Shown here one piece after another: positions 13,106 to 30,516 of a DNA stretch of 64,000 bases. The notes under the pieces were generated by a model. It was not told the DNA's origin. It was given only the letters and a program-made list of their open reading frames with translations, and searched no databases. Source of the DNA: an uncultured Eudoraea sp. (lineage in GTDB: Bacteria > Bacteroidota > Bacteroidia > Flavobacteriales > Flavobacteriaceae); contig CAMYJF010000010.1 of assembly GCA_947258555.1 (NCBI GenBank), positions 27,630-91,629 of the forward strand, written 5' to 3'. Position 1 is the first letter of the stretch. Every line of letters begins with the position of its first letter. The position numbers and the translations under genes were made by a program.

Positions 13106-13966
13106 ATGCTTGATCTCTTATTATCTGTAGTTTGCTCCAGTTTGATCTTTGTCATATTTAAGCTGTTTGCCACCTATAAGGTTGAAACATTATTTGCTAT
13201 CATTATTAATTATGTTACTGCATGCAGTGTAGGTCTAATCCTCTTCGGGCAATCCATACCCTTAACAACCCTCCCGGAAAAATCCTGGTTTTTTCCTGCT
13301 ATTGCCCTTGGAATGCTGTTTATTATAGTATTTAATTTAATGGCGAAAACGTCTCAGGACCTAGGTGTTTCAGTGGCATCAGTGGCGACCAAAATGTCTT
13401 TGGCCATACCTGTGTTGTTCGGGGTTTGGTTGTATAATGAGACCTTGAGCGTATTAAAAATTGCTGGGATCATCCTGGCATTATTAGCCGTTTATTACGC
13501 CTCTGTAAAGCCAGGGTCCAATTTTCGAAGCAAAGGTTTGCTTCTGCCTGCTTTGGTCTTTCTTGGTTCGGGTATCATAGATATATGTATCAAATACATT
13601 CAGGACGGACTCGTCACAGAGGCAGAATTTCCGATATTTAGTGCAGCTGTTTTTGCTGCGGCAGCTGTGACAGGATTGGTGTTTATTAGTGCAACACGAG
13701 CCAAGCGCCTCTTTTCGTTTGGACAACGCAATGTGCTTGCCGGGATCATACTAGGTGTTCCCAACTTTTTCTCGATCTACTTTTTATTACGCGCATTAAA
13801 TACCCCAGCTTTAAACAGTGCCACGGTCTTTACCTTAAATAATGTGGCCATTGTTATGTGTACAACCCTGCTTGGGATTGCTTTATTTAAGGAGCATCTA
13901 AGTAGGACTAATTGGGCAGGAATAGGCCTGGCTGTGGTAAGTATTTTGTTAGTTGCCCTTTTTTAG
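13106..13966 (+). CDS. EamA/RhaT-type transporter
   Basis: A 286-residue integral membrane protein with about ten hydrophobic segments arranged as two repeats of five, the drug/metabolite transporter layout. The first half ends near GIILALLAVYYAS and the second half repeats the pattern, ending WAGIGLAVVSILLVALF. It starts immediately after the HAD stop codon and is the last gene of the ribD unit. The substrate cannot be told. Its stop overlaps the convergent thioesterase stop by four bases. Confidence 0.85.
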   Translation: MLDLLLSVVCSSLIFVIFKLFATYKVETLFAIIINYVTACSVGLILFGQSIPLTTLPEKSWFFPAIALGMLFIIVFNLMAKTSQDLGVSVASVATKMSLAIPVLFGVWLYNETLSVLKIAGIILALLAVYYASVKPGSNFRSKGLLLPALVFLGSGIIDICIKYIQDGLVTEAEFPIFSAAVFAAAAVTGLVFISATRAKRLFSFGQRNVLAGIILGVPNFFSIYFLLRALNTPALNSATVFTLNNVAIVMCTTLLGIALFKEHLSRTNWAGIGLAVVSILLVALF

Positions 13967-14319
13967 AAATACGTTCTTTCAATTTTCTGCAGTAATGAAT
14001 CCGGGCAGCGTATAGGCTTGTTTGTCGCCATGTCCATAAAGGCTAAAACAGTATTTGCTTCTACCAGTAGATCTCCACTTTCCGACTTTATCTCATAGTC
14101 AAATTCAATCTTGACCTGAGGTAATTTTTTGATCTTTGTGACTACTGTTATATAGTCATCATAGGCTGCCGATCTTAGGTATTTCAGGTTTACAGAAATT
14201 ACCGGTAATTTGATGCCGTCTTCTTCCATTTGTTTGTAGGAAATTCCCATAGCCCTTAACCACTCTACTCTACCCATCTCAAGGTATTGCAAATAATTGC
14301 CGTGATATACCACACCCAT
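13963..14319 (-). CDS. Acyl-CoA thioesterase (YbgC/FadM type), 5' end defective
   Basis: Hot-dog-fold thioesterase. From the first usable ATG (14319) the protein is 118 residues, starting MGVVYHGNYLQYLEMGRVEW, which is the middle of the family motif. The bases upstream continue in frame as FRVRYAETDQ (14320-14349), exactly the conserved sequence containing the catalytic aspartate, but the frame meets TGA at 14356-14358 and has no ATG, GTG or TTG in between. An in-frame ATG exists further up at 14373, before the TGA. The gene therefore appears to be damaged at its 5' end. Without the aspartate the product would probably be inactive. Confidence 0.8.
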   Translation of the reverse strand: MGVVYHGNYLQYLEMGRVEWLRAMGISYKQMEEDGIKLPVISVNLKYLRSAAYDDYITVVTKIKKLPQVKIEFDYEIKSESGDLLVEANTVLAFMDMATNKPIRCPDSLLQKIERTYF

Positions 14320-14435
14320 TTGATCGGTTTCGGCATACCGTACTCTGAAATTGTCTCACTTGTAAATTAGCATCGTCAAGAGCTATCTTTTACCTGCAGA
14401 AGTAATCACTAACCGTTCAATAGAGTATTTTTAAG

Positions 14436-15799
14436 ATGGGTCTAACTGCGAATTCCGTTTGGAACAATTGCTTGGCATTTATCCAAGACAATATCCAACC
14501 GCAGGCTTTCAAAACGTGGTTTGAGCCCATCGAACCCATCAAAATTCAAGACAACGCATTAAGCATCCAGGTGCCCAGTAAATTCTTTTATGAATGGCTG
14601 GAAGAGCACTATGTGAAATTGTTGAAAGTAGCCCTCACCAAAGAGCTTGGTGAAGGTGCAAAGTTGGTCTATATAATAAAGATGGAGAATACTTACGGAA
14701 ATTCAGAACCTTTTACCGAGCGGATACCCAGTACGAACAGGGGCGGTGTTTCACCTCAAGAAATGAATGTGCCTATTCATTCCAAAAATCCGGAATTAAA
14801 AAATCCTTTTGTCATTCCGGGTATTCGCAATATCAAAATAGAATCTCAATTAAATCCCAATTATAATTTTGAGAATTTCCTCGAGGGAGATTCCAACCGC
14901 TTGGCGCGTTCGGCAGGGATGGCAGTAGCCAATAAACCGGGGGGCACTTCTTTTAATCCCTTGTTAATTTTTGGTGGTGTTGGTTTGGGCAAGACGCACT
15001 TGGCCCATGCCATTGGTGTCAGCAGTATATTGAATCTGTTAAGAAGAATACGCGAAATGATTTTATCCATTTCTATCAATTGATAGATGTGCTTATCATT
15101 GATGATGTTCAATTCCTTAGTGGAAAGACTGGTACTCAAGATGTGTTCTTTCATATCTTCAACCACCTGCACCAGAACGGGAAGCAAGTGATTTTAACTT
15201 CAGACAAAGCACCTGTAGATATGCAGGACATAGAGCAGCGTCTCTTATCTCGTTTTAAATGGGGACTGTCTGCTGAACTGCAAAATCCTGACTACGAAAC
15301 ACGGATCTCGATCTTAAAGAATAAGTTGTACAGGGATGGGGTTGAAATGCCTGAAGACATCATCGAATATGTCGCAAAGCATATCAAAACTAATATTCGG
15401 GAACTGGAAGGTGCCATTATATCCCTAATTGCTCAATCTTCTTTCAACAAAAAAGAAGTAACATTGGAATTGGCCCGGCAGGTAGTCGAAAAATTTGTAA
15501 AGAATACCAAACGGGAGGTGTCAATAGACTACATTCAGAAAGTGGTTTCCGATTATTTTGAAATGGATGTGGCAACTCTGCAATCTAAAACCCGAAAAAG
15601 GCATATAGTCCAAGCCAGACAGTTGGCTATGTTCTTTGCCAAGAAGTACACCAAAGCCTCGCTTGCAAGTATTGGATCACAAATTGGTAAGCGCGACCAT
15701 GCCACAGTGCTTCATGCCTGTAAAACTGTTGACAATCTTGCTGAAACTGATAAGCAGTTCCGTAAGTATATAGAAGATCTAACCAAGAAATTCGCTTAA
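14436..15799 (+). pseudogene. dnaA: Chromosomal replication initiator DnaA, internal deletion with frameshift
   Basis: The initiator of replication. The first part encodes domain I, the linker and the AAA+ domain up to Walker A (GGVGLGKT, residues 180-187) and is correct to residue 195 (AIGV, 15020). It then reads out of frame to a stop at 15081-15083. From 15020 another frame gives [15 protein letters not shown], Walker B VLIIDDVQF, the sensor regions and the DNA-binding domain IV with GKRDHATVLHAC, ending at 15799. The segment between, about 20 residues in other DnaA proteins, is missing, implying about 61 lost bases. Restoring it gives roughly 474 residues, the usual length. The flanking thioesterase, phosphatase and methyltransferase genes are the usual flavobacterial dnaA neighbours, so this is not an extra copy. 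Confidence 0.92.
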
Positions 15800-25730: not shown

Positions 25731-26949
25731 TCATGCCTGGAACTCGTTGATCGTTTTCCTAATAATGGCAATACACTCATGCAATTGCTCTTCCATCATA
25801 ACCAGAGGAGGCGCAAACCGAATTATATTCCCATGGGTTGGTTTTGCCAACAAGCCATTATCCTTTAGGGCGATACAAATATCCCATGCTGTGGAGCTGT
25901 CTTCTGTATCATTAATGACAATTGCATTTAGTAAGCCCTTACCTCGAACCAGGGTGATCAAATCGAATTCTCTTTCCAATTTTTCCATCTCATTCCGGAA
26001 AATTTCACCTAAAATTTCTGCGTTTTCTGCAAGGCCTTCGTCCCGAACTACTTCAAGGGCCGCTATAGCTACGGCACAAGCAAGAGGGTTCCCCCCAAAT
26101 GTGGATCCGTGATTCCCGGGTCTGATCACCTCCATGATCTCATTGTTTGCAAGCACTGCTGAAACGGGAAATACTCCGCCTGAAAGCGCCTTGCCCAGTA
26201 TCAAAATATCTGGTTTCACGTCAGGAGTCCCACTACAAAGTTTATCAGCGCATTGACAATTTCCACAGGAAGCGAGGAGTCTGCCTGTTCTGGCTATACC
26301 GGTTTGGACCTCATCAGCAATAAACAAGACATTCTTCGCTTTACAAAGCGCATGAGCTTCCTTTAAATAATCAGGGTCAGGTGTATAGACTCCGGCTTCG
26401 CCCTGGATAGGTTCTACCAGGAATGCGGCCACATGAGCATCATCTAAGGCTTCCCTGAGTGCATTCAGGTCATTATAGCGAATAGAGACAATGCCCGGAG
26501 TGAAGGGGCCAAAATTTTCTGTAGCAACGGGATCATTAGAAGCTGAGATAATGGTGATGGTACGTCCGTGGAAATTATTCTGACATACGATGATCTTAGC
26601 CTTGTTGGCAGGGATCCCCTTCTTTTCATATCCCCATTTGCGCGCTAACTTGATCGCAGTTTCAACAGCTTCTGCGCCCGTGTTCATCGGAAGTACACGG
26701 TCAAACTTAAAGAAATCTGTTACAAATTTTTCGTATCTCCCCAGGATGTCATTGTAAAAAGCTCTCGATGTCAAGGTGAGTTTTTCAGCTTGAGAATTCA
26801 GAGCTCCTATAATAGTTGGATGGCAGTGTCCCTGGTTTACTGCGGAATAGGCAGAGAGGAAATCAAAATATTTATTCCCTTCTACATCCCAAACAAATAC
26901 CCCTTCTCCCAATAGCATCCTGAGATGTTAATCTATCTACTACAGACAT
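25731..26949 (-). pseudogene. rocD: Ornithine aminotransferase, deletion/frameshift near the N-terminus
   Basis: Converts ornithine and 2-oxoglutarate to glutamate semialdehyde and glutamate. The main frame (from 26909 down to 25731) starts abruptly at [11 protein letters not shown] and holds the PLP residues DEVQ and lysine in ILGKALSGG. The expected N-terminus is encoded upstream in another frame: ATG at 26949 gives [13 protein letters not shown], ending at 26911. About 20 residues that normally lie between (containing the conserved KYGAHNY region) are absent, implying about 59 missing bases. An ATG at 26918 could start a shortened 395-residue protein, but part of the active-site entrance would be lost. 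A cysteine cluster CxxCxCx4C precedes the PLP lysine by about 15 residues. Confidence 0.88.
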
Positions 26950-30503: not shown

Positions 30504-30516
30504 AATTGATGCTCAG

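Follow-up and report, generated by a model that had tools for sequence, protein, structure and literature searches.

Why a thioesterase gene next to dnaA carries its catalytic motif upstream of any start codon is the question raised by this locus. The window, meaning the whole stretch of 64,000 nucleotides that was analysed, lies on contig C10 of an Eudoraea assembly (G000), and we compared it with two congener genomes (G001 and G002). On the minus strand, the frame runs from a TGA (14358-14356) through the codons GAC AAT TTC AGA GTA CGG TAT GCC GAA ACC GAT CAA to an ATG (14319-14317), which reads as a stop followed by DNFRVRYAETDQM. The earlier note had placed FRVRYAETDQ in frame just above the first ATG (14319), in a stretch with no start codon and with a TGA further up, and our reading of the minus strand confirmed all of this. 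None of the 10 codons that separate the TGA from the catalytic GAT is ATG, GTG or TTG, and the CAA preceding ATG 14319 is no start codon either. The in-frame ATG that the note had reported upstream of the TGA, at 14373, is also present in the sequence, and it opens a short frame, MLIYK and a stop, that ends at the TGA. The spacing of 62 bp to dnaA was recovered as the distance from ATG 14373 to the dnaA ATG at 14436, and 116 bases separate ATG 14319 from the dnaA ATG in the window.

The thioesterase gene itself is ordinary. Its read-through frame (13963-14355) scores 100.5 bits with TIGR00051 (cut-off 68.7), which places it in the YbgC/FadM family of acyl-CoA thioesterases, and 69 bits with Pfam 4HBT_2 (cut-off 25.5). 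Since both the window frame (100 bits) and the intact G001 protein (102.8 bits) stay below the cut-off of TIGR02799 (141.35), the equivalog for the Tol-Pal-associated YbgC, we did not file the gene as YbgC proper. For the Asp, a catalytic role is reported from H. influenzae YbgC, where it was mutated in D18N (PMC2698920). In this family the catalytic Asp should lie inside a frame that has a start codon; in the window the Asp codon is in frame and the start codon is absent, and a product made from ATG 14319 would lack the catalytic Asp.

Relatives were collected by a genome search, in which 54 of 60 genomes (the window's own among the 60) had a thioesterase match, and by a contig scan, from which the best 80 of 586 confirmed matches were taken. 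With the window's own genome excluded, the loci from both searches make up 109 relatives, in which a few species occur twice, once from each search. Among these matches listed, the catalytic column is Asp in every one of the 109, and every one has an upstream start codon, which is ATG in 93 and only GTG or TTG in the other 16 (L009, L031, L037, L046, L055, L057, L059, L063, L064, L066, L067, L069, L075, L100, L103 and L105). The read-through frame of the window is 92% identical to the open frame of G001 and 88% identical to that of G002. Based on this identity and on the Asp and the start codon shared by all relatives among the matches listed, the motif frame is not a product of chance.

The region 14319-14373 is only a symptom, and the cause is the junction 14350/14351 (Table 1). 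The earlier note had proposed a comparison with relatives, and this comparison revealed that both congeners are longer than the window at exactly this junction. As judged from G001, the block absent from the window consists of about 120 intergenic bases and about 20 from the 5' end of the thioesterase, which include the ATG and the codons that precede the motif. When we searched the rest of G000 for the missing intergenic block, it was not found. In the alignments, the counterpart of the TGA and of ATG 14373 is the dnaA leader of the congeners; both therefore belong to that leader and not to the thioesterase, and the proposal that the stop is an error or a recent mutation in the thioesterase start finds no support. 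The proposal of an unusual start codon finds none either, since the congeners carry an ordinary ATG that is simply absent in the window. The third proposal, a small deletion that removed the start, was right in kind, in that 140-141 bases including the ATG are missing relative to both congeners, but as a deletion of the organism's own it is disfavoured, the evidence pointing more to the assembly than to the organism. On the dnaA side of the junction, positions 14351-14521 are 97% identical to G001. Two G001 contigs (C355 and C275) both end in the dnaA start region at 14395-14521, where they overlap by 127 bases of the window span, and this region therefore breaks the assembly of a congener too.

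Table 1. Coordinates of the features at the thioesterase and dnaA locus and at the other clean losses in the assembly
Feature	Position	Strand	Basis or remark
YbgC/FadM-family thioesterase without start codon and first codons	13963..14349	-	Stop codon 13965-13963; first homologous codon F 14349-14347
Junction, 140 (vs G001) or 141 (vs G002) bases missing	14350..14351	.	Alignments to both congeners
Retained dnaA leader / intergenic part	14351..14435	+	Congener alignments
In-frame TGA (14358-14356) and ATG (14373-14371)	14356..14373	-	Aligns to dnaA leader of G001 and G002
dnaA 5' part (DnaA_N, start of ATPase domain), in frame to the break	14436..15019	+	Pfam DnaA_N 74.7 bits; Bac_DnaA profile positions 1-57
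Junction, 61 bases of dnaA missing vs both congeners, frame shifted	15019..15020	.	Alignments
dnaA 3' part in other frame (rest of ATPase domain, C-terminal helix-turn-helix)	15020..15799	+	Bac_DnaA positions 75-161; Bac_DnaA_C 98.1 bits
Ornithine--oxo-acid transaminase, 59 bases missing at 26909/26910	25731..26918	-	TIGR01885 603.2 bits; compared with G002 only
Type III pantothenate kinase, 29-base clean loss	L190:4903, G000 contig C8		vs G001
Pyruvate:ferredoxin oxidoreductase, 100-base clean loss	L220:17117, G000 contig C20		vs G002

The arrangement of the two genes in other genomes is consistent with such a loss. The thioesterase is divergent to dnaA in 107 of the 109 relatives among the matches listed, and the other two have no dnaA match in the fetched stretch. 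In the 107 relatives with both genes among the matches listed, the projected distance from start to start is 162-534 bases with a median of 203, and in G001 the start codons of thioesterase and dnaA are 205 bases apart. The spacing of 62 bp in the window is thus a consequence of the 140-base loss. Compared with Flavobacteriaceae loci in which a YbgC/FadM-family acyl-CoA thioesterase lies beside dnaA, the window shares the family (TIGR00051) and the divergent neighbour, and differs only by the missing start region and the absence of most of the intergenic region.

The neighbouring dnaA, on whose state the earlier note is silent, is broken as well. Since 61 bases are missing at 15019/15020, the gene is split into two ORFs (14436-15083 and 15080-15799), and the two pieces score 140.5 and 314 bits with TIGR00362, the DnaA equivalog, which demands more than 343.9 bits in one frame. 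G001 and G002 each have a single uninterrupted dnaA frame of 478 codons, and the Bac_DnaA match runs through it without a break. A search of G000 with PF00308 for a second dnaA found none, and the GC skew on contig C10 shows no clear switch at dnaA. When we compared codons with those of G001, dnaA had 117 synonymous and 7 nonsynonymous differences in 448 codons, and the thioesterase had 37 synonymous and 9 nonsynonymous differences in 128 codons. Because these differences are mostly synonymous, neither gene looks like an old pseudogene.

Similar losses were found elsewhere in the assembly. We compared 1,305,045 bases of G000 with 206,168 bases of G001 (17,645 of them reading N) and 437,314 bases of G002 (about 2,000 counted twice). 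Alignments of at least 800 columns and more than 70% identity were counted, which cover 305,807 bases of G000, and a gap was called clean when its 40-column flanks reached at least 75% on both sides. Within these 305,807 bases, clean gaps of at least 20 bases that break a frame or a start occur at five distinct sites as sequence missing in G000 and at none as sequence missing in the congeners. The five sites are the thioesterase start (140 bases; against G002 the gap is 141, a multiple of three), dnaA (61), ornithine aminotransferase (59), type III pantothenate kinase (29) and pyruvate:ferredoxin oxidoreductase (100), of which the first two are seen against both congeners and the 59-, 29- and 100-base losses against one congener only. 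Because 59 bases are missing near the 5' end of the ornithine aminotransferase gene, the ATG at 26918 that looks like its start is not in the reading frame of the true 5' end. Two further clean gaps have lengths divisible by three: G000 lacks 21 bases at one of them, and G002 lacks 33 at the other. Ragged gaps were also observed: those missing in G000 comprise a second loss in pyruvate:ferredoxin oxidoreductase near L220:18346 (49 and 23), one at L148 (22) and one at window positions 30507-30515, the last against G002 only, with G001 aligned there without any gap of at least 8 bases, and those missing in G002 are at L183 (47 and 32). As drafts, the congeners fall short of G000 (88% and 89% complete, in about 380 and about 310 contigs), and agreement of both therefore counts more than either alone.

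Genome decay was considered and rejected as the source of these losses. Small clean gaps that break long frames are balanced, with 26 as losses in G000 and as many in the congeners, and the codons of dnaA show no relaxation.

We then consider how the assembly was put together. In the 1.305 Mb that were read, G000 contains eight N-runs of 13-97 bases, and a scaffold gap of 20 N (G000:C10:27610-27629) ends at the base that precedes window position 1. Four of the eight runs could be sized from congener coordinates, the 20-N run before the window being left out, and all four are wrong: 82 N stand for 55 bases (G001), 95 N for 56 (both congeners), 33 N for 166 (both congeners) and 75 N for 60 (G002). 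Three of the four are thus too long, by 15-39 bases, and one is too short by 133. The assembly is therefore scaffolded with unreliable gap sizes, and at both joins in the thioesterase-dnaA region it lacks sequence that independent relatives have (140/141 and 61 bases against both congeners), as would be expected of gaps that carry no mark. Under-predicted and negative gap sizes are described as a recognised scaffolding problem in the PBJelly paper (PMC3504050). The mis-sized gaps treated there and the case of G000 are alike in that contig order is right and distance is wrong, and the N-runs of G000 are indeed mis-sized; the suspected gaps of G000 differ in carrying no N at all, so that they look like completed sequence in which genes are broken. 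In a term search, no paper of the searched literature named metagenome assembly errors together with truncated genes.

Based on the 61-base loss in dnaA, the other losses in G000 and the N-run evidence, we attribute the thioesterase loss to the assembly rather than to the organism. Judged from the sequences compared, the missing start is very probably an unmarked gap in a scaffolded draft that was closed without N, and not unusual biology. During scaffolding, the size of some gaps between contigs would have been underestimated and these gaps closed with no N inserted; an estimate that fell to zero or below would lead to such a closure and could produce the pattern seen at 14350 and at 15019. 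The unmarked gap at 14350/14351 would then hide about 140 bases, namely the start codon and first codons of the thioesterase and most of the divergent intergenic region, and the one at 15019/15020 would hide 61 bases of dnaA. The former join would also have brought the dnaA leader, with its TGA and ATG 14373, next to the thioesterase. From the losses themselves, the absence of the lost sequence elsewhere as far as searched, the similar losses at other sites, the N-gaps and their wrong sizes, all of which are observed, we infer that one and the same step produced the unmarked joins and the marked gaps. Several points speak against a scaffold gap: only one of the four sized N-runs errs in the needed direction, the congeners are drafts of lower quality, the 59-, 29- and 100-base losses each rely on a single congener, and the two joins in the dnaA region are just 669 bases apart and could also reflect one local event.

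The same proximity bears on the view that the deletions are real, in which the organism has lost the promoter block of thioesterase and dnaA together with 61 bases of dnaA, the genes being inactive or further copies being unassembled. Two losses within 669 bases could be a single local event, the contig runs through this locus without any N, and the assembly has a completeness of 95.25% and a contamination of 0.02%. Such deletions would, however, inactivate the only dnaA that was found, the codons of which look strongly constrained, and they would leave aside the similar clean losses in unrelated genes of G000, none of which is matched in the reverse direction, and the lack of any excess of small frame-breaking indels. 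We consider real deletions very improbable. An extra copy elsewhere in G000 was tried as an explanation and rejected, since neither the missing block nor a second dnaA was found, although a completeness of only 95.25% leaves room for an unassembled copy. It is scarcely credible that the deletions are real and that this flavobacterium initiates replication independently of DnaA, its only dnaA being frameshifted and the conserved upstream block gone. True deletions would imply that this lineage can do without dnaA, a surprising outcome.

A different assembly artefact in place of an unsized scaffold gap, for example a strain variant that was collapsed, a chimera from amplification or an error in polishing or gap-filling, would fit joins that carry neither N nor a long shared repeat at the junctions, and it would fit the fact that most sized N-runs are too long and not too short. 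Against this, short scaffold gaps do exist in G000, the size of one being underestimated by 133 bases, and the identity profile gives no support for a foreign insert between the junctions, so that such an artefact appears unlikely. The stretch 14351-15019 was examined as such an insert because it is 92.7% identical to G001, compared with a median of 84.8% for windows of the same size; but G001 and G002 are themselves 89.5% identical there, indicating that the region is simply conserved, and the chimera was rejected. An intact gene, read from a non-standard start between the TGA and the motif or from ATG 14373 with the TGA as a sequencing error, draws on the 16 of 109 relatives without an ATG above the motif among the matches listed, in which the choice of start is somewhat flexible. 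In the window, not even GTG or TTG is present, both congeners have their ordinary ATG in the very stretch that is absent here, the TGA and ATG 14373 align to the dnaA leader, and the break in dnaA would be left unexplained; we regard the chance that the gene is intact as negligible.

An unmarked scaffold gap as the preferred reading has consequences for the use of this genome. The draft looks clean by its completeness and contamination, yet unmarked losses would break normally essential genes in it. Short losses of this kind create false starts and apparent pseudogenes, and the gene calls, start sites and pseudogene counts of G000 need checking against the congeners.

The intergenic region that is largely missing from the window contains a strongly conserved non-coding element in the relatives. 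The 15-mer TTGTTCACATATTTG, read on the dnaA strand, occurs exactly in the intergenic regions of 76 of 107 relatives among the matches listed, and the best match in the same set has one mismatch in 10, two in 3, three in 13 and four to six in 5. The block missing from the window covers 12 of its 15 bases in G001, and the window has no match to it with up to two mismatches. As a text string the 15-mer was not found in the searched literature, which carries little weight, and the dnaA leaders of three loci (L003, L041 and L034) gave no Rfam match to a structured RNA at the gathering score. No exact copy occurs in 568,604 flanking bases, and among 2,100 shuffled intergenic sequences the best match has two mismatches in three cases and more in the rest. 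Its TTTG end resembles the -7 element of Bacteroidetes promoters and TTGTTCACA resembles a DnaA box, both as putative assignments. Based on its sequence conservation, the 15-mer is likely to be a dnaA promoter or a DnaA-box-like element, and we propose it as a candidate for either.
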